Part shown: positions 17-8,810 of the stretch, one piece after another
Layout of the letters: each line of letters begins with the position of its first letter
Position numbering within the stretch: position 1 is the first letter of the stretch
NCBI GenBank assembly: GCA_029260475.1
Contig: JAJDDE010000043.1
Location: forward strand, 1 to 41,794
From: Phycisphaerales bacterium
Lineage (GTDB): Bacteria > Planctomycetota > Phycisphaerae > Phycisphaerales > UBA1924
Direction of reading: 5' to 3'
Length of the DNA stretch: 41,794 nt
Notes under the pieces: model-generated
Databases searched by the model: none
What the model saw: the letters and a program-made list of their open reading frames with translations, nothing else
Told to the model about the DNA's origin: nothing
Program-made: the position numbers and the translations under genes

Positions 17-460
17 ATGACCGTGCGCCCGCTGGCGGCCGCCGAGCCCCCCGACGCGCACGGCTGGTGGTGGGGCACGGGCCGTCGCAAGACGGCGGTC
101 GCTCGCTGCCGCATGAAGCCCGGTTCGGGCGAGATCAAGATCCAGATCAACCGCAAGAAGTTCAAGACGGTCAACGAGTACTTCTCGGAGACCCGCGACC
201 GCAGCGACGTGGTGGCGCCCTTCGAGGCGACGGGCACCTTGGGCAAGATGGACGTGGTCATCCGCGCCCACGGCGGCGGCTACATGGGCCAGGCCCAGGC
301 CATCCGTCTCGGCATCAGCCGTGCGCTCAAGAAGTACGACCCGACGCTGGAGCAGGCGCTCCGCGACAACGGCCTGCTGACGCGTGACGACCGCGAGGTC
401 GAGCGTAAGAAGTACGGCCAGGCCGGTGCCCGGCGTAAGTTCCAGTTCTCGAAGCGCTAA
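17..460 (+). CDS. rpsI: 30S ribosomal protein S9 (start uncertain, possibly cut by window edge)
   Basis: Small-subunit ribosomal protein S9, which contacts the 30S head; its C-terminal tail reaches the P-site tRNA. The core begins with GTGRRKTAVAR at about residues 21-31, followed by an EYF segment near residue 55 and the basic C-terminus KKYGQAGARRKFQFSKR, all typical of S9. The roughly 20 residues before GTGRRK, including WWW, make an N-terminal extension relative to short bacterial S9 proteins. The frame stays open to the left window edge, so the true start may lie further upstream and ATG at 17 is only the first one visible. rplM (L13) is the usual upstream partner and would lie outside the window. 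A strong terminator follows 35 bases after the stop. Confidence 0.95.
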   Translation: MTVRPLAAAEPPDAHGWWWGTGRRKTAVARCRMKPGSGEIKIQINRKKFKTVNEYFSETRDRSDVVAPFEATGTLGKMDVVIRAHGGGYMGQAQAIRLGISRALKKYDPTLEQALRDNGLLTRDDREVERKKYGQAGARRKFQFSKR

Positions 461-495
461 GCAACGGGTTCGGACAACGCGATTGGATTACGAGG

Positions 496-529
496 CCGCG
501 ACCCGGTGGGGGTCGCGGTCTTTGTTTTT
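496..529 (+). terminator. Rho-independent terminator of rpsI
   Basis: A perfect 9-bp G/C-rich stem (496-504 with 510-518) with a 5-base loop is followed by a T-rich tract at 519-529 (tctttgttttt). It sits 35 bases after the rpsI stop codon. Confidence 0.8.
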
Positions 530-556
530 GCTCAGGCGTTGATTGGTCGATCGGTG

Positions 557-620
557 GGATGGGCTTCCAGCCCGTCCCGATGTCCGTGGCGCACCAGAAG
601 GACGGCCTGGAAGGCCATCC
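557..620. repeat. Inverted pair of small palindromes (REP/REPIN-like)
   Basis: Arm 557-577 is complementary to arm 600-620 at 19 of 21 positions, separated by 22 bases. Each arm also contains its own 5-bp hairpin with a 3-base loop (GGGCT/AGCCC and GGCCT/AGGCC). Two hairpin units in inverted orientation is the architecture of REP doublets. It lies between the convergent ends of rpsI and the lipoprotein gene at 662 and lacks a T-run, so it is not an obvious terminator. Genome-wide copy number cannot be judged here. Confidence 0.5.
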
Positions 621-661
621 ACCGCAGAAAGAACGGTCACGCCGGGTCCGTCGAACCGAGC

Positions 662-1441
662 CTAAGGGACGAGCGTGTAGGTGGTGGTGTCGGAGCTCTG
701 CGAGCCGAACATATCGGATTCGCTGTTCATCACGCCGCCGATGGGGATTCCGAAGCGCCGGTCGTAGATGATCGTGCCGGAGTCTGTAAATGAATGCGCC
801 TGTTGCTGAGGATCGATTTGAATCGGGTTGTTATCGATCTCGACCGTGATCGTCTTTGCATCGAACCCGACCAGCGTGTATGTGACATCGAACGTCGTGA
901 TCTCGCCGTACTCGCCCTCGTGCGATCCGTGGAGAATCCAGCGGGCACCGATACCGATCGGTGACTCGGGGAGTACGAGGTGGTCTGTGCTCCACAGAAC
1001 ATGCGGCGAAACCGATGACTGTTCGTAGTCGAGGCGGTGTGCGTCGCGAACGATCGTGTTCGTGATGCCCACCAATTCGCGATTGTTCTCGCTGTCGTCG
1101 CGGTAGGGGGCGTCGGCGGGTACTTCTTGGCACTTGGTGACATTCCGTGTGATCGAGACGGAGTCATTGCTCGAAGCGAGATCAATGACGTAATTGGACG
1201 TCACCTTGAGTTTGGTGGCAGCAGCGATCCCGTCGCGTGTGACTGTCCTCTCCTCAATCGTCATGGTGTCGCCCGCACCCGGCTGAAGACCAAGCACACA
1301 ATACGGGGGTGAGCCGTCACCATTCACAATGAGTGATGTGGATGTTCTCGTCGCAGGAAGGGTGTTCGCGCACGCGGAGAGCGCTGAGGCACTCACCACC
1401 CCGCATACAAAATTCGCGGTTGCGCGCGAGAGAACACACAT
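662..1441 (-). CDS. Putative lipoprotein with one P..P.G.GA.W domain
   Basis: Predicted 259-residue lipoprotein of unknown function. The N-terminus ends in a lipobox (LSAC, Cys24). It carries the signature PESPIGIGARW at residues 158-168, followed about 60 residues later by a YDRRFGIP element, both shared with the three genes upstream in the same operon. The start is taken as ATG at 1441, which overlaps the TGA stop of the preceding gene (TGATG), suggesting translational coupling; a GTG one codon earlier is possible. It is the last gene of a five-gene minus-strand run. The pattern is reminiscent of secreted DUF6263-type proteins, but that assignment is uncertain. Confidence 0.8.
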   Translation of the reverse strand: MCVLSRATANFVCGVVSASALSACANTLPATRTSTSLIVNGDGSPPYCVLGLQPGAGDTMTIEERTVTRDGIAAATKLKVTSNYVIDLASSNDSVSITRNVTKCQEVPADAPYRDDSENNRELVGITNTIVRDAHRLDYEQSSVSPHVLWSTDHLVLPESPIGIGARWILHGSHEGEYGEITTFDVTYTLVGFDAKTITVEIDNNPIQIDPQQQAHSFTDSGTIIYDRRFGIPIGGVMNSESDMFGSQSSDTTTYTLVP

Positions 1442-3276
1442 CACTGGGCCAACTCGATCGTCACCGTCGTCGCGCCCGCCTGCTGGAGCATCTGGGCCTT
1501 GCCGAGGGTGACCATCTGCAGGGTGAGCCAGCTCGCGGTGACCATGGAGCCCTCGACGGGCCTTCCGAGGGCGCGGTCGTAGGTGAGCTCGCCCTCACAG
1601 ACCGCGAGGAGGGAGCGCAGGGGGGAGGTGAGGTTCTTCTCGTCGTCGAGGCGGGCGATTTTGGAGTGCTTGATCTTGACGGTGAAGGTGTCGTCGGTGA
1701 TCGCGACGAGCTCGAAGTCGCGGAGGACGTGGGTCGTCATGCCCGTGAGGTGCGACAGCTTCTCGAGCGTGCGCCAGCGGGCGCCGATGCCCAGGGGGGC
1801 TTCGGGGAGCACGCAGCTCGTGCCGGCGAACTCGATGTCGGCGGTGGGCGTGGGCCGGATGCGGCTGGCGTTGGCCTCTTGCCCGATGCGCTCGAGCACC
1901 TCGCCCCTGGTGGTCAGGGTGTAGTTGTACTGCTGGCCCACGAGTCTTTTGATGCCGACGTCGAAGGTCTGGAGCAGTCGCGCGTCGAAGGCGGGGTCTT
2001 CGACGATCCCCGCGTCGGTCACGCGGGTGAAGACGGAGAAGGTGCCGTTTCCCGGCGCGGCCTGCGTGGCGAGGGCGATGGTCTGCTCGAAGTCGGGGAT
2101 GGCGGCCTGCTCCATGGTGCCGACGCCGCCCTCGTAGTCGAGGAGCTCGAACTTCGTGGTGACGCTGATGGTGCGGGCGGCGTCGAGGCTGGGCGTGTAT
2201 CGGAGCTCTGACTTGTCGCCGACGCCCGAGGAGAGCAGGAGCGAGCCGGAGTCGGGCATGCCAGCGATCACGCGGTCGAGGTCGGGGACGCTGGGGCGCG
2301 GCGGGTGCGTGCTGGCGGCTTCGTCCTCGCCCTCTGGTCGGCTGATGGTGATCTCGGAGAAGAGGCGCTGCTCGATGGTGCTGCGGCTCGTTTCGGGGCT
2401 CTTGGCGGTCACGTTGACGGTCGCGTCGGTGCGCACGAAGCCGTGGGTGGGCGCGCCGCTGCGCCGGTCGATGGTGAGCTCGCCGAGGATCGAGCCGGTG
2501 CCGTCGGTGATGGTGGTGACCATCTCGGGCATCTGCGGCGAGGGGGGCAGCGTCTGTTCTTCGAGCAGGTAGCGCCCGTTGACGCTGAGGCTGATGGTGT
2601 CGTCGTTGGCGTCGGTCAGCGTGTAGCTGAGGATGAGGGTCTGCTGGATGTTGTCCTCGTTGAAGTCGCGCCGGGCGTGCCACACAGCGCCGGGGGCGAC
2701 GGGCTCATCGGGGAGGATGTACATCGGGAGCAGCGCGATCTGCGCGATGCGTTTGGCGAGGTCCTTGTCGGCGGCGGGCTTGGTGCGCACGTCGTCGTGG
2801 GGGATCGGGAGGCCTCGCTCGGAGAGCGTGCGCACGCTGGACATGCCTTCGAGCGGCGCGATCAGCGCGCGCATGCCCTGGTTCGCGGCGTCGGTGGCGT
2901 CGGTATTCTCGGCGACGCCCAGCTCGGTGAAGACGCTGTCGGCGACGAAGGACCGATCGTCCATCACCTTGCGCACGGTGGAGGTGACGAGCGCGGTGTG
3001 CGTGGGGAGTTCGCTGCCCGCCATGGGGACGCCGTCGAAGAGGCGCGTGACGCTGAGGTACTGCGTGGCGCGGTAGCTGGTGCTGTAGCCGGCGAGGGGC
3101 GCGAGCGTGTAGAGCCGCGGGCGGCCCTCGCCTCGGGAGACGATGAGGGTGTCGGCGTGCTCGAGGGTCTCCGCGAGCTCGCGCGCTTGCTGATCCGATA
3201 ACAGGGCGTCTTGCGCGAGCGTGGGGCGGGTCAGCGTTAAGGCAGCGAGCGTGGCGAGGATGCAGAGCGTGCGCAT
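1441..3276 (-). CDS. Secreted protein with two P..P.G.GA.W domains
   Basis: A 611-residue protein of unknown function with a Sec signal peptide (cleavage near residue 21, after PTLA). It consists of two homologous halves. Each half has an N-terminal part with a beta-strand-like pattern and then the signature: PDEPVAPGAVW at 189-199 and PEAPLGIGARW at 491-501. Each signature is followed by a (I/Y)DR..G.P element (IDRRSGAP near 269, YDRALGRP in the second half). The two halves and the neighbouring genes look like products of repeated duplication. No catalytic motif was recognised. AGGA lies about 12 bases before the ATG. The stop overlaps the next gene start. Confidence 0.85.
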   Translation of the reverse strand: MRTLCILATLAALTLTRPTLAQDALLSDQQARELAETLEHADTLIVSRGEGRPRLYTLAPLAGYSTSYRATQYLSVTRLFDGVPMAGSELPTHTALVTSTVRKVMDDRSFVADSVFTELGVAENTDATDAANQGMRALIAPLEGMSSVRTLSERGLPIPHDDVRTKPAADKDLAKRIAQIALLPMYILPDEPVAPGAVWHARRDFNEDNIQQTLILSYTLTDANDDTISLSVNGRYLLEEQTLPPSPQMPEMVTTITDGTGSILGELTIDRRSGAPTHGFVRTDATVNVTAKSPETSRSTIEQRLFSEITISRPEGEDEAASTHPPRPSVPDLDRVIAGMPDSGSLLLSSGVGDKSELRYTPSLDAARTISVTTKFELLDYEGGVGTMEQAAIPDFEQTIALATQAAPGNGTFSVFTRVTDAGIVEDPAFDARLLQTFDVGIKRLVGQQYNYTLTTRGEVLERIGQEANASRIRPTPTADIEFAGTSCVLPEAPLGIGARWRTLEKLSHLTGMTTHVLRDFELVAITDDTFTVKIKHSKIARLDDEKNLTSPLRSLLAVCEGELTYDRALGRPVEGSMVTASWLTLQMVTLGKAQMLQQAGATTVTIELAQ

Positions 3277-3326
3277 GGGTCTGGTGTTCCTTGTGACAGG
3301 GACGGCGAGAGGCAGTCGTATCGGGT

Positions 3327-5201
3327 CTACCCGTCGGGTTCGGCTTGGTTGTCGATGAGCTCGACGGTCTCGATCGTCTCGTAGGCGGTCGCGATCTGCA
3401 GGACGCGGCCAGTGATGCCGGCGGCGGTGACCTCCACGTCCATGCCGACGTTGGTCTCCCCGTCGTGCGAGACGGTCTGGCCCGTGAAGCGATCGACGAC
3501 GCTGTTGGTGTACCCCTCGCCGGCGGCGTGGAGGATGCGAGCCTCGGTGCCCTCGGGCATGTACTCATTTGTATAGGGCTGCTCGGGCATGATGATGATG
3601 ATGTCGGAGTACAGATAGATGTAGCGATCGTCGAATCCGGTCAGCGTGGTGGTCTCGACCACTGTCCTGCGGATGTTCTCGACGACCTCCTCGGTCGCGG
3701 TGCGCCAGACGGCGCCGACACCGATCGGGCGGTGCGGGAGCTTGAAGAAGTCGGAGGCCTCGACGTTGCACATCTCTTCGAGCATCGGGCGCACCGCCGG
3801 GTCTACGGTGTCGAGCGGGTCGGTGCTGACGTTGAGGACTTCGCCGTCGGGCGCGTAGGTGTAGGTGATCCTCGCACCCTCGATCGGTCGGACGGCCTCG
3901 TTGTTCTGGCGGATCGCCTCGGCGTCTTCGTCGGAGAAGGGGAGGTAGCGGAACTCATCGATGGTGTCCTCGACGACAAAGACCCCGGAGGGCAGCACCT
4001 CCTTCACCACGCTGGTGAAGACGGCGTAGGTCGGGAACTCGAGCGTGACTTCGTCGTTCGGCACACCGGTGGGGAGGAGTTGGAAGGCATCGGTGGACTG
4101 CGAGAACATCCACGTCGCCAGCTCGCCCTCGCGCGGCGCGTAGGCGAGGGGTTTGGGGTTCTCGCCCGGCTCGATCAGGCGGACCTCGCCCGGCTTCAGT
4201 CCTTTCGCGATCCTCTGGGCCTCTTCGACGGTGAGCATGTGTGGGTCGAACTCGTAGATGTTGCGGGCTGCGGTCGCTTGGGACGTGATCACGAAGTTTC
4301 GGTCGGGCGTCGTGCACGCGTGCGTCTGGACCACGTCGACGTTGAACAGCGCGGCGACGGGCGCACCGGTTTTGGGATCGACGACGGTCGTGATGCCGCC
4401 GACCGCGTAGCTGGGTCGCAGCGTGGAGGAACCCTCGGGGCCGAGCGAGACGGGCGAGGTCTGTTCCGGCATGACGCCGCGAAGCTCGGAGTAGATCACC
4501 AGCCCGTCCTCGGTGATGTTCGAGAGGGTGTGCGTCATCATCTCCGAGTATTGGAGGGCCACCGACTCGCTCGGGGACCTGGTGCGCCAAACGGCCCCGA
4601 GCCCGATGGGCTCGGTCGGCAGGCGTGTGCCACGGATGTGATGGGAGAGGCTGGAGATGAGCTCCCGGATGGTGGCGTTGGCGATCCTCGGCGGGAACCA
4701 CGAGGAATCGACGACCTCGCCGCTGGGCGTGAGCGTGACGACGTGCGTCATCGCCTCCAGCGAGTTGAGCGCGACCTGTACCTCGCGCCGTCGTTCGGGG
4801 GTGCCGATGGCCCGGGGCATGAGTTCCGCGTCGGCGAACCGCGCCTGGAGCACGTAGTTGCCGTCCGGCTCGACCTTGGTGACCTTCGTGTCCACGCGGA
4901 GGCGGCACGACGGGAGGACGACGCTCGGGCGGCGTGCGTCGTCGAGCCATGCGTGCGCCTCTTTGTCGATGTCGATCACGAACGTGGTCGTGTCGCCGAC
5001 CTCGGGCGTGAAGGAGCGCGGGGCGATCTGCTCATCGCCCTGCCAGAGGAGGACGAGATCGCCCTCCTCCATCGCGTCGATGATCCGGGGGATGTCCTCG
5101 TCGGCGCGCCCGAACCAGGGCTCCTCATGCTGCGCAAGTGCGCTCGGAGGGGCACTGAACAGCAGCGCGATGACGATTCGGATTCGCGTCCTCCGGAACA
5201 T
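3327..5201 (-). CDS. Secreted protein with two P..P.G.GA.W domains
   Basis: A 624-residue secreted protein of unknown function, with a basic N-terminus and signal peptide ending near ALAQ (residue 24). Like its downstream neighbour it is a two-unit protein: signatures PTEPIGLGAVW at 195-205 and PHRPIGVGAVW at 489-499, each followed by a VD(P/R).TG element. The first halves of the units share a segment of the type LVLLWQGDE...RSFTP with the other paralogues (residues 49-65 here). It starts 16 bases after the stop of the upstream gene, so it is almost certainly co-transcribed. A role in the cell envelope is inferred only from the signal peptide. Confidence 0.85.
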   Translation of the reverse strand: MFRRTRIRIVIALLFSAPPSALAQHEEPWFGRADEDIPRIIDAMEEGDLVLLWQGDEQIAPRSFTPEVGDTTTFVIDIDKEAHAWLDDARRPSVVLPSCRLRVDTKVTKVEPDGNYVLQARFADAELMPRAIGTPERRREVQVALNSLEAMTHVVTLTPSGEVVDSSWFPPRIANATIRELISSLSHHIRGTRLPTEPIGLGAVWRTRSPSESVALQYSEMMTHTLSNITEDGLVIYSELRGVMPEQTSPVSLGPEGSSTLRPSYAVGGITTVVDPKTGAPVAALFNVDVVQTHACTTPDRNFVITSQATAARNIYEFDPHMLTVEEAQRIAKGLKPGEVRLIEPGENPKPLAYAPREGELATWMFSQSTDAFQLLPTGVPNDEVTLEFPTYAVFTSVVKEVLPSGVFVVEDTIDEFRYLPFSDEDAEAIRQNNEAVRPIEGARITYTYAPDGEVLNVSTDPLDTVDPAVRPMLEEMCNVEASDFFKLPHRPIGVGAVWRTATEEVVENIRRTVVETTTLTGFDDRYIYLYSDIIIIMPEQPYTNEYMPEGTEARILHAAGEGYTNSVVDRFTGQTVSHDGETNVGMDVEVTAAGITGRVLQIATAYETIETVELIDNQAEPDG

Positions 5202-5217
5202 GCGGTCTCCTTTCGGT

Positions 5218-6153
5218 TCAGCCGTCTACCGGCTCTGCGGTCATGGTCATGTCGATGTCCTGATCGACGCTCATGGACTGGCCTTGCATGTTCATGTTGA
5301 CGGTCATGGTCATGGTCATCTTGGAATCGACGACGATGAGGGCGGAGGTGGCGAGGTCGAGGGTGGCGGTGCCGGAGACGACGCTGTCGGCCTTGGTGAC
5401 CTTGCCGCTGGCGCCGGGGGGGAGCTGGTCGCCCGGGAGGTCCTGCACGGGGATGTACTGGAGGGCGTCGATGGTGAGGTAGAGGGTGTCGCCGTCGATT
5501 TTGTTGAGCGTGTAGGTGTTGAACATGTGCATAGCCAGGCCGTTGGCGCTGCGATCGAGGCGCTGGCGCCAGACGGCGCCGGGCGCGACGGGCTTCTCGG
5601 GGAGGGGGACGGTGGAGGTGAGGGAGGCCATCTGGTCGGCCTGGCCCTGGGCCTGGGCGTCGGCGCCCGCGGGGAGCTTGGTGTCGGCGCTCAGCACGCG
5701 CCCGAGGTCGTCCATCGTGATGGTGGTCACGGTGCCGACCATGGTCTTGAGCGACTGGGCCATCATGTCGGCCATCGGGCCCTGCTCGCCCTCGGTGACG
5801 CCCGCGTCCTCGACGGTCACAACGACGGTGAAGCCCTCGTCGTTGGTCTTTGAGACCCGGTACTCGTTGCGATAGAACGAGGCGGGGAGCGTGTTGGCGC
5901 CCATGGGCTGGCCGCCCATGGACTGCTTCATGGTCATGTTCTGGACGAGCTTTACGGTGACGCTGTTGTCCTCCACCGCTGCGTACCGCAGCTCACGCGC
6001 ATCGCCCTTGCCCGCGTCGAGCAGTACGACCTGCTTGTCCTGCATCGTCTCGAGCAGGCCCGGGGCGTCGGCGTTGGTGATGTCGTGGGGACCCGCGAAG
6101 AGCGGGGCCGCGAGGGCGCAGGAGGCGAACAGGGCGATGAGGTGTCGGTGCAT
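5218..6153 (-). CDS. Secreted protein with one P..P.G.GA.W domain and Met-rich tail
   Basis: A 311-residue protein with a clear signal peptide (cleavage after Ala20, LFA/GPHD). The start at 6153 is preceded by a GA-rich RBS (GAGAGAGAC); the longer upstream reading has no signal peptide and is rejected. It has the family signature PEKPVAPGAVW at 185-195. Two stretches are rich in methionine: around residues 73-84 and 279-305, where Met alternates with Thr/Asn in a strand-like pattern. Met-rich extracytoplasmic segments can bind Cu(I), but this is speculation here. It lies 47 bases after the esterase-like gene and 16 bases before the next paralogue. Confidence 0.82.
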   Translation of the reverse strand: MHRHLIALFASCALAAPLFAGPHDITNADAPGLLETMQDKQVVLLDAGKGDARELRYAAVEDNSVTVKLVQNMTMKQSMGGQPMGANTLPASFYRNEYRVSKTNDEGFTVVVTVEDAGVTEGEQGPMADMMAQSLKTMVGTVTTITMDDLGRVLSADTKLPAGADAQAQGQADQMASLTSTVPLPEKPVAPGAVWRQRLDRSANGLAMHMFNTYTLNKIDGDTLYLTIDALQYIPVQDLPGDQLPPGASGKVTKADSVVSGTATLDLATSALIVVDSKMTMTMTVNMNMQGQSMSVDQDIDMTMTAEPVDG

Positions 6154-6200
6154 GGGTCTCTCTCTGTGTTGGAGTGTGCGTGGATCTGGTTGTGTGCTGC

Positions 6201-7421
6201 TCAGCGTCCGAAGAGGGCGCGTGCGGCGTCGGGGAATCGTTGGGACCAGGCGTTCTCGTTGTGCGCGGCGCCGTCGTCGATGACGAGGGTGACGTGCTTC
6301 TTCGGGACGCCGCAGGCGACAAGGTGATCGGCGAGGACGGTGGCGGCCTCGGCGTAGATGGAGTCGCGCGCGGGGTCGCCGGTCTCCTGGGTGCCCATGC
6401 CGATGAAGGCGCGGTCGCACCAGGGGCCTGGGTGATCGGTGATGATCTCCTCGAAGGCGGGGCCCGCGAAGCGGATGGCGGCGGACTCGATGAGCGCCTG
6501 GCCGAAGGTGCCCGGGGCGTGCATGAGTGCGTAGAGGGTGACGTTGGCGCCGAAGGACGAGCCGCCGATCGCGGTGTGCTCGGGCCCGGTTTTGACGCGG
6601 AACCGTTCATTGACCGCCGGCATGACCTCGTCGGTGAGGAAGCGGACGTACTGGTCGGCGCGCCCGTTGCGCCCCTGGAAGTTGATCTCGGGTGCGTTGT
6701 ACTCCCACGAGCGCTGCGTGCCCGCGTTGTCGATGCCGACGACGATCATCGGCGGGACGTCGCCCGCCTTGATGAGCTCGGTGAGCGCGCCGTCGATGTT
6801 CCACTCCATGCCGAAGGCGGCGGTGTTCTGGTCGAAGCAGTTCTGCCCGTCGTGCATGTAGAGCACGGGGTAGTTGTCCTTCGAGTTGTCGTACCCCTCG
6901 GGGAGCCAGACGCGGATGGTCCTGGTGTTCTCCATGAACTCGCTGGTGAGCTCGAAGGTCCGGAGGGTGCCGACGACGGTGGAGGGCTTCTCGGTGATCG
7001 CGTCGGCGAAGGCGACGACCTCGATGGTGACCGAGCCGGGGCGCCCCGCGAGCATGCCGTCGAGGTCGCGGTTCTGGAGGTAGTTGCCGTCGGTCTCGGT
7101 CTCGACGGTGTCCCACGAGCCGCGGGTGAGCTTGAAGCGGAAGGTGGGGTGTGAGGCGGTGCGGTAGGGGATCTCGAAGCGGAAGGCGTGGGGGCGGTCG
7201 TCGGTGGCGGGCATGTGCTCGACGGCTGGCGTGCCGCGCGGGTCCCAGGCGTTGGCGCTGGAGGCGATGTACATGCGATCGATCGGCTCTTCGGACTCTG
7301 CCGAGCGGTCGATGACGATGATCGAGAGTGTGTCGTGGGCGGCTTGCATGACGGGGGTGCTCCGGAAAGAGGCGCAGAGGAGGAGACAGCACACCAATAC
7401 GGACGACAGCGGGCGGTGCAT
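6201..7421 (-). CDS. Enterochelin-esterase-like alpha/beta hydrolase (putative esterase family)
   Basis: A 406-residue secreted hydrolase of the Fes/esterase D family. A signal peptide covers about residues 1-22. Residues 48-115 resemble a CBM48/E-set N-terminal domain (NAW.P.G.P...F.F.L..G.W...E). The catalytic alpha/beta domain follows, with YMHDGQN at 188-194, the nucleophile elbow GGSSFG (Ser289) and a C-terminal His in GAAHNENAW (His387). The family hydrolyses ester bonds in siderophores or carbohydrate esters; the substrate here is unknown. The start at ATG 7421 was chosen because the longer reading lacks a signal peptide. It is the first gene of the minus-strand run containing the four P..P.G.GA.W paralogues, so those proteins may act with it. 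Confidence 0.85.
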   Translation of the reverse strand: MHRPLSSVLVCCLLLCASFRSTPVMQAAHDTLSIIVIDRSAESEEPIDRMYIASSANAWDPRGTPAVEHMPATDDRPHAFRFEIPYRTASHPTFRFKLTRGSWDTVETETDGNYLQNRDLDGMLAGRPGSVTIEVVAFADAITEKPSTVVGTLRTFELTSEFMENTRTIRVWLPEGYDNSKDNYPVLYMHDGQNCFDQNTAAFGMEWNIDGALTELIKAGDVPPMIVVGIDNAGTQRSWEYNAPEINFQGRNGRADQYVRFLTDEVMPAVNERFRVKTGPEHTAIGGSSFGANVTLYALMHAPGTFGQALIESAAIRFAGPAFEEIITDHPGPWCDRAFIGMGTQETGDPARDSIYAEAATVLADHLVACGVPKKHVTLVIDDGAAHNENAWSQRFPDAARALFGR

Positions 7422-7463
7422 GGTCCCTGAGCGTATCGCGGGTGACGTGCGATGGGCGCATAA

Positions 7464-7506
7464 AAGAGGCCCGCGCGTCGCCTCGGGGGGGAGGGTCGCG
7501 CGGGCC
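7464..7506 (-). terminator. Rho-independent terminator of the superoxide dismutase gene
   Basis: Read on the minus strand, a perfect 10-bp stem (7506-7497 with 7477-7468) closes a 19-base loop and is followed by TCTTTTA. It lies about 40 bases after the sod stop. A run of ten G residues (7508-7517, plus strand) lies immediately upstream of the stem. Confidence 0.7.
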
Positions 7507-7547
7507 CGGGGGGGGGGCGATGTGATGTCGGTCACAGCGTAGACCGC

Positions 7548-8183
7548 TCAGAGGGCCCCGGCTGCCTTCGCGTTGGAAGCAACCGCGTCCCAGTTCACGA
7601 CGTTCCAGAAGGCGTTGACGTAATCGGGGCGCTTGTTCTGGTACTTGAGGTAGTAGGCGTGCTCCCAGACATCGAGGCCCAGGAGGGCGGTGCCCTCGAT
7701 GCCGGCGACCTGCTTGCCCATCGCGGGGTTGTCCTGGTTGGCGGTGGAGCCGATCGCGAGCTTGCCCGAGGGGTCGGCGTAGAGCCAGGCCCAGCCGGAA
7801 CCGAAGCGGGTGGCGGCAGCCGTTGCGAACTGCTCCTTGAAGGCGTCGAAGGAGCCGAAGGCCTTGTCGATCGCTCCGGCGAGGCTGCCCGAGGGGGCGC
7901 CGCCCTTGTCCGGGCCCATGACGGACCAGAAGAGGGCGTGGTTGGCGGCGCCGCCGGCGTTGTTGCGGACCGCGGTCTGCTTGTCGGCGGGGAGATCGCC
8001 CATTTTCTTGCAGACGATCCAGGGGTCGGTTTCGCCCTCGAGCGGGGTGCCCTTCAGGGCGTCGTTGGCCTTGCTGACGTAGGCGGCGTGGTGTTTGCCG
8101 TGGTGGATCTCCATCGTGGTCGCGTCGATGTGCGGCTCGAGGGCGTCCTTGGCGTAGGCGAGGTCGGGGAGAGAGAGGGGCAT
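7548..8183 (-). CDS. sodA: Superoxide dismutase, Fe/Mn family (Mn-type signature)
   Basis: Converts superoxide to hydrogen peroxide and oxygen. The 211-residue length is normal for the family. The four metal ligands are present: His27 (in [12 protein letters not shown]), His82 (NHALFW), Asp171 and His175 ([19 protein letters not shown]). Gln150 in TANQD and the lack of Gln before NH (GGAANH) are features of Mn or cambialistic enzymes rather than Fe-SOD; metal use is inferred. No signal peptide, so it is probably cytoplasmic. The start at 8183 matches the family N-terminus and has GGAG about 9 bases upstream. It is a single-gene unit with its own promoter and terminator. Confidence 0.95.
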
Positions 8184-8235
8184 GGTGGGAACTCCGTTGG
8201 GGGACTTCTGGATGCGGCGGGGCGGTAACCCCCAC

Positions 8236-8263
8236 CGTATATATGTGGAACACAAGGGGTCAA
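8236..8263 (-). promoter_or_regulatory. Candidate sigma-70 promoter for sodA
   Basis: On the minus strand, TTGACC (8263-8258) and TATACG (8241-8236) are separated by 16 bases. The predicted start of transcription would leave a leader of about 45 bases before the sod ATG at 8183. Confidence 0.5.
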
Positions 8264-8329
8264 GACACGCGCCACGGCACCGTAAGGGCCGATCTGGCGC
8301 AACATGACCCCGATCTCCGAATCAAGGGT

Positions 8330-8410
8330 TGACGCGATGTCAGGGTCTGACATGCTGGCGTCAGAGTCCGTCCGGGAACGTCCCGGCGTGCGTACGACTC
8401 GAAGAGTCGT
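8330..8410. other. Three consecutive perfect dyads in the sodA/sigma intergenic region
   Basis: The first dyad is TGTCAG/CTGACA at 8338-8352 with a 3-base spacer, nested inside TGACGC/GCGTCA (8330-8335 with 8358-8363). The second is CCGGGA/TCCCGG at 8372-8386. The third is ACGACTC/GAGTCGT at 8394-8410. All inner dyads have a 3-base spacer and none is followed by a T-run. They lie between the divergent promoters, so they could be protein-binding sites or RNA hairpins. Confidence 0.6.
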
Positions 8411-8586
8411 GTCCGAGCCTATGGAGAGGTTTTCGGACGGTCAATCGGTGTCCGCGCGGCGTAGTGATCGCCGCTCGGGCTGGGTGTCCACCCGTTGTGG
8501 TGGGCAAGGTGCAGAAAGAAATGCGCGAAAGCGTCTGATATGAACAGATTGAGGGAGAAAACCTGCTCCCTTGTTCGTTCGGCCTC

Positions 8587-8614
8587 TTGCACCTGGCGGG
8601 AAATTTTGTAGATT
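8587..8614 (+). promoter_or_regulatory. Weak candidate promoter for the sigma factor gene
   Basis: TTGCAC (8587-8592) and TAGATT (8609-8614) are 16 bases apart in an AT-richer pocket (AAATTTTGTAGATTG) of otherwise GC-rich DNA. The match to consensus is modest. It would give a leader of about 255 bases. Confidence 0.3.
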
Positions 8615-8810
8615 GTTTGACCCGGCGCGCAGAACCAAACACGCCGCTGAGCCGTATACACCTATCCGGTGAGCTCTTTGCAGGTGGGACCTGTGCTGGG
8701 GTTTGTCAGGGCACGACGGTGTGCGTCCGGGGACGAAGAAAAGTGGGTGGTCTCGCTGCGTGAGGTTCGTTTGATCTCGCGGGACCATACGTACGGAACA
8801 ATGGGTCAGC

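Follow-up and report, generated by a model that had tools for sequence, protein, structure and literature searches.

Extracytoplasmic beta-barrels are found in LmcA, also named PgfA (7n3v, 7shw), and in proteins of the LolA/LolB/YmcC/DUF1329 type, and a barrel of this general kind is what we propose for DUF6263 (PF19777), a domain that occurs six times in four adjacent genes of a Phycisphaerales contig (C43; its 41,794 bases are called the window here) from a genome of 3.4 Mb in 210 contigs. LmcA is described as an elongated barrel enclosing two cavities, and its own authors compared it with CD36/LIMP-2 (PMC8972800). Under the name PgfA, it is reported to bind trehalose monomycolate in the periplasm and to interact both with an analogue of this lipid and with MmpL3 (PMC9678360). 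The authors of PA1994 (DUF1089) likewise compared their protein with LolA/LolB, and lipovitellin was among their DALI hits (PMC2954207). Among the Ser/Thr kinases of planctomycetes, one survey reports periplasmic TPR, WD40 and DUF1080 domains (PMC11032199). Our model, which we hold with moderate confidence, suggests that the array encodes secreted, soluble DUF6263 barrels that bind a lipophilic ligand and have been amplified and are diverging in one lineage, and that DUF6263 copies forming the outer domain of kinases would report such a ligand.

All four genes lie on the minus strand. Gene A (P0001, 260 amino acids; 662..1444) carries one diverged DUF6263 unit; genes B (P0002, 611 amino acids; 1441..3276) and C (P0003, 624 amino acids; 3327..5201) each encode two units in one secreted protein; and gene D (P0004, 311 amino acids; 5218..6153) encodes one barrel unit, the best-conserved copy. 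Judged by eye, B, C and D start with signal peptides and A has the lipobox LSAC, in agreement with an earlier note on this DNA. The signature P..P[IVL][GA].GA.W matches exactly six times in the six frames of the whole window, every time inside these genes and in the numbers per gene that the note had counted: once in D (LPEKPVAPGAVW, 5569..5604), twice in C (LPTEPIGLGAVW in unit 1, 4587..4622; LPHRPIGVGAVW in unit 2, 3705..3740), twice in B (LPDEPVAPGAVW in unit 1, 2680..2715; LPEAPLGIGARW in unit 2, 1774..1809) and once in A (LPESPIGIGARW, 938..973), all on the minus strand. Shuffling the residues of the four proteins for 20,000 rounds gave no match. The loop around it (PLPEEPVGxGARW) is the best-conserved part of the DUF6263 domain, and its P, second G and W (P185, G192 and W195 of D) are invariant across 69 aligned rows. 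A second element, said in the note to follow every signature, is present in strict form in four of the six units, where it starts 68 to 80 residues past the signature; it is degenerate in gene D, as the note had it, and also in unit 2 of gene C (VDRFTGQT). The segment of the LVLLxxGxExxxR type that the note had seen near the N-terminus proved to be a hallmark of the entire DUF6263 family.

The domain, which the note had left unnamed while raising a possible relation to DUF6263, is indeed DUF6263. The Pfam model scored 39.5 bits for gene B and 37.3 bits for gene D, against a cut-off of 26.7, and the Pfam scan found no family in genes A and C. We then relied on an independent profile of 67 DUF6263 relatives that contains no window protein; left out of it were L079, L085, L087 and L105-L108, as fragments or weak matches, and L038, L042, L048 and L071, as places already included. 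This profile reached all four proteins (C, 219.6 bits; D, 200.4; B, 189.0; A, 23.7) and, in single units, gave 122.4 and 97.5 bits for C and 110.0 and 83.4 bits for B; the best of 2000 shuffles of A scored 6.3 bits. Within its own genome, the best other match of gene A is unit 2 of gene B (E 1.2e-4). Because of the Pfam matches, the profile scores relative to shuffles and this match between A and B, we take all six units to be DUF6263 by sequence, with A a diverged copy; they are thus homologous, as the note had supposed, and the profile searches assigned none of them to an unrelated family. The array resembles other members of the family in the signature loop, in an N-terminal start of the LLDAGAEPR type and in length.

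With P0004 alone, both units of B and of C were recovered in their own genome and one match each in seven of 60 other genomes; a first search of genome contigs with P0004 alone gave no match, and 71 loci from several phyla came from a contig search that used four aligned relatives as the query. Relatives occur in Planctomycetota, Myxococcota, Verrucomicrobiota, Cyanobacteria, Actinomycetota and others (phyla as named in the records). In alignment A5, whose 69 rows include the window units, 55 rows match PF19777 at E 0.1 or better. An acidobacterial protein from a metagenome-assembled genome (MAG; L064:4500-6239) resembles DUF6263 in its N-terminal part (20.9 bits), after which come TPR repeats. 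Two further candidates were not accepted. L036, a beta-lactamase fusion in the window genome, has an N-terminal DUF6263 match of 17.1 bits, under the cut-off, and scored 13.4 bits against 10.2 for shuffles with the A5 profile, yet 5.9 bits against 8.2 for one shuffle with the window-free profile. L037 scored 8.2 bits with A5 and 4.9 bits with the window-free profile, the latter below a shuffle.

Our strongest argument comes from copies linked to kinases. A phylum-level search found the family in 53 of 294 genomes, and 17 places were fetched: all 15 non-window matches in frames of at least 600 residues, one shorter frame (G432) and one from the search of the order (G090). The Pfam scan covered 16 of these frames, with that of G432 left out, and ten (L175-L183 and L187, from nine genomes) combine Pkinase with DUF6263, which stands at the C-terminal end. 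The HRD and DFG motifs are intact in all ten proteins, which come from genomes of the window's phylum, none in its order. In nine of them the barrel directly follows a hydrophobic stretch of 19 residues (mean hydropathy 1.96 to 2.99) that comes after the kinase; in L187, WD40 repeats separate the transmembrane-like stretch from the barrel. Pkinase was not found in the other six frames (L184, L185, L186, L188, L189 and L191, of which L185 has WD40 repeats), nor was a kinase found in four long frames from the window's order (L192-L195). A profile made from nine of the kinase-linked domains, without that of L187, scored 72.0 bits for D, 59.3 and 56.9 for C1 and C2, 36.5 and 33.8 for B1 and B2, and 12.7 for A, the best of 2100 shuffles reaching 5.8. 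We also observed the same architecture in L089 of JASJAY010000031.1, a Planctomycetota MAG; it reads as the same protein as L175.

Such an arrangement would place the kinase-linked DUF6263 outside the membrane, as a soluble domain at the position of a sensor. The transmembrane Ser/Thr kinases described for planctomycetes (PMC11032199) share with these fusions the kinase, the single transmembrane stretch and a periplasmic C-terminal domain, DUF6263 being the last domain in the fusions; the window genes differ in having no kinase. DUF1080 is the sole DUF term in the main text of that survey, whose supplements list 105 accessory domains and may include DUF6263.

AlphaFold2 modelled unit D (alignment A5) with a pLDDT of 93.0 and a pTM of 0.88, and unit A (alignment A6) with a pLDDT of 77.7 and a pTM of 0.76. 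Both models are large beta-barrels with a common order of elements (leading strands, a helix, two strands, a helix and six strands) and differ in an extra leading helix in D and some extra short strands in A. Thus, the best-conserved and the most diverged units are predicted to share nearly the same order of elements. In both models, the solved fold that comes closest, or ties for closest, is the N-terminal barrel found in the large lipid transfer proteins MTP, ApoB-100 and lipovitellin; the alignments cover 186 to 220 residues at 4.2 to 5.2 angstrom. For unit D, Foldseek matched MTP (E 1.0e-5), FadL (3.0e-5), ApoB-100 (3.7e-5) and LmcA (2.1e-4), and VIA-align gave Z values, to be read as ties when within 1 of each other, of 11.3 for a COG4313 channel, 11.2 for ApoB, 11.1 for lipovitellin, 11.0 for MTP and 11.0 for the autotransporter EspP, followed by 9.5 for the YmcC-like 3fzx, 8.2 for DUF1329 and 7.5 for LmcA. 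For unit A, the values were 10.9 for ApoB, 9.8 for lipovitellin, 9.5 for MTP and 9.0 for FapF, then 8.9 for the putative lipoprotein 4fvs, 8.8 for 3fzx, 8.1 for LolA3 and 6.3 for LmcA. The fold scores of LmcA and LolA3 are moderate, and neither has a family match by sequence. Searches of the array proteins found no large lipid transfer family (Pfam and PDB sequences, each up to E 10), no Lol family (Pfam up to E 10, NCBIfam up to E 1) and no solved structure convincingly related by sequence (PDB sequences, up to E 10).

The strands have two distinct faces. When the 12 strands of D were mapped on A5, the hydropathy contrast between alternate positions was 1.84, compared with a mean of 0.87 and a maximum of 1.57 in 2000 rounds of shuffling columns within strands. 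The hydrophobic face holds 42.8% L/V/M/I, 9.1% Met, 8.4% aromatics and 11.6% D/E/K/R, and the polar face 1.1% Met and 33.7% D/E/K/R; a first analysis gave a sharper split (53% L/V/M/I, 12.3% Met), with ten strand segments picked after inspection. We infer that the hydrophobic face lines the inside of the barrel.

We next weighed what else such barrels could be. The most serious competitor, although we think it unlikely, is that they are protein-binding or scaffold domains of the envelope that take no small ligand, with the PLPEEPVGxGARW loop as the binding surface. That this loop is better conserved than the rest of the domain speaks for it, and fusions to kinase, WD40 and TPR domains would also fit protein contacts; however, no conserved partner gene was found near the family in the loci and flanking open reading frames (ORFs) examined, and a barrel with one Leu/Val/Met/Ile face would fit a cavity better. 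It is very unlikely, in our judgement, that the units are outer-membrane beta-barrels acting as pores or channels, although the best structural matches of D include FadL, PorB, autotransporter barrels and the COG4313 channel, and the number of strands would suit this reading. None of the 69 rows of A5 has an aromatic natural C-terminus (the single aromatic end is the cut edge of window unit C1), aromatics make up only the small share of the hydrophobic face given above, and several strands of the D model are 16 to 22 residues long. Moreover, a single transmembrane-like stretch precedes the barrel in the kinase-linked copies, which should therefore be tethered in the periplasm, and unit A has its lipobox, a motif that occurs in strict form in six of 71 relatives. 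Finally, we find it hardly credible that unit D uses its Met-rich face as a site for redox chemistry or for copper(I), in connection with an Fe/Mn superoxide dismutase gene: unit D has 7.2% Met and such a gene (7551-8180, minus strand) lies directly upstream of the esterase gene that precedes the array, but Met makes up only 1.3 to 2.3% of A, B1, B2, C1 and C2, and the median of the relatives is 3.0%.

Soluble barrels around a lipophilic ligand thus remain our preferred explanation, against which several observations count. Outer-membrane barrels tie with the lipid proteins in the VIA-align values of D, and the Foldseek superposition of D on MTP is loose (query TM 0.42, rmsd 7.8). For unit A, the first Foldseek hits, LmcA (E 0.015) and MTP (0.03), fall short of E 0.001, and alignment A6 behind the model of this unit already assumes family membership. 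Because hydropathy itself defined the faces, their contrast is partly built in, and strands 194-203 and 206-220 alternate poorly. No Pfam family occurs in more than three of 128 flanking ORFs from 35 planctomycete loci, where ORFs were called by a crude codon-position rule and some may be false; a lipid pathway consequently gains no support from the neighbourhood. A common fold alone, moreover, shows no function.

How did the array arise? Among 301 genomes of the order, 69 contain the family (E 1e-5 or better), and the window genome has the most matches, at least six, the others having one to three listed, some of which are pieces of one unit. These counts are lower bounds, since at most seven candidates were scored per genome, and the scores of the window units themselves are partly built in, as A5 contains them. 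Whereas most carrier genomes have one listed match, the window has six units spread over four adjacent genes, two of which encode two-unit proteins. In a tree of 47 rows, whose 41 non-window units all come from planctomycete loci, the six window units fall on one side of a branch (support 78/80), with D on the shortest branch (1.14, versus 1.8 to 3.2 for the others). C1 pairs with C2 (99/89) and B2 with A (91/71); both may be false joins, because the tool warned that long branches meet there, and the inner order is unsure. When the tree was rebuilt without eight rows (unit A, the two G010 units, L148_1639, L149_5273, L143_7831, L144_2484 and L073_7836), the five remaining window units still grouped, at only 87/33, and the bootstrap of neither tree had settled. 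Five of the six window units also carry a leading, helix-like segment (type A..LLETM...) that exceeds by one column the corresponding stretch of 14 relatives compared from the 69-row alignment, which is mostly Pro/Ala/Ser/Thr-rich or absent.

Tandem duplication in the window lineage, as the note had suggested, is the best reading of the highest match number, the tree grouping and the leading segment common to five units, the tree by itself arguing for it weakly. Other genomes of the order, too, have copies in tandem or two units in one protein: G157, G272, G060, G166 and G168 have adjacent copies (three of them in G060), and a frame of 580 residues in G010 contains two units. Among these loci, L145 (G060) contains the three adjacent genes and L146 (G010) the two-unit frame, and the DUF6263 pairs of L148 and L149 (G166 and G168) look orthologous in the tree. 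A D-like ancestor would have duplicated in tandem, partly within genes to give the two-barrel proteins B and C, and the copies would then have diverged; a diversified ligand range may be the reason for the expansion.

The array sits behind an esterase-like gene, as the note had stated. This gene (P0005; 6201..7421, minus strand) encodes a secreted PF00756 esterase (E 3.2e-28, 99.6 bits against a cut-off of 22) and ends 47 bases upstream of gene D. As the gaps that follow are 16 bases between D and C and 50 between C and B, with an overlap of 4 bases between B and A, the esterase gene and D, C, B and A are likely to form one transcription unit. A sigma-70 scan of window positions 400-8700 found no promoter-like site, and an Rfam scan of the window gave no match. 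A terminator-like stem-loop of 13 pairs (492-522), just after a plus-strand gene for ribosomal protein S9, faces the end of the array. Conservation of the esterase beside the paralogues in related genomes, a check that the note had proposed, was not borne out: phmmer with P0005 (E 0.001) found no esterase homologue in L029-L108 (80 loci, 78 with a DUF6263 match) or in L143-L162 (20 loci, all with one). With none in 98 DUF6263-bearing loci, of which at least five places are present twice and many have flanks that are short or ended by contig edges, we rejected esterase plus barrel as a conserved module. An esterase homologue exists somewhere in the genome in 41 of 61 genomes searched, the window genome included.

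We hypothesize that each barrel is an extracytoplasmic, soluble domain with two helices and with strands that have one hydrophobic, Met-containing face, and that, in the periplasm or on the cell surface, it would enclose a lipophilic ligand (a lipid, a lipoprotein acyl chain or a hydrophobic metabolite). The window copies would then be carriers or scavengers of differing ligand range and, more speculatively, the two-barrel proteins could hand a ligand from one barrel to the other. In other planctomycetes, the same barrel, as the outer domain of a transmembrane Ser/Thr kinase, would most likely report a lipophilic ligand. A bolder proposal, to which we assign a low probability, makes DUF6263 a widespread bacterial lipid-binding barrel sharing ancestry with the N-terminal barrel of MTP, ApoB and vitellogenin of animals. 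It would serve in two ways: as a secreted lipid carrier, free or in two-barrel form and multiplied in tandem arrays such as that of the window, and as the outer, lipid-sensing part of planctomycete receptor kinases that would form a class not described so far. DUF6263 proteins are bacterial and lack the other domains of the large lipid transfer proteins, and among the literature matches listed there was nothing on a bacterial relative of that group.

DUF6263 spans several phyla, yet we found no mention of DUF6263 or PF19777 in the open-access papers searched. Of the ten kinase-linked copies, the Pfam model detects four (E 0.001 or better); their scores of 19.8 to 24.8 bits all lie below its cut-off, which is why routine annotation leaves these receptor domains blank. 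With a predicted fold, a location and a sensor-type architecture at hand, the ligand of DUF6263 can now be sought directly, and ligand ranges may be compared among the six variants of one barrel that have diverged naturally within the array.

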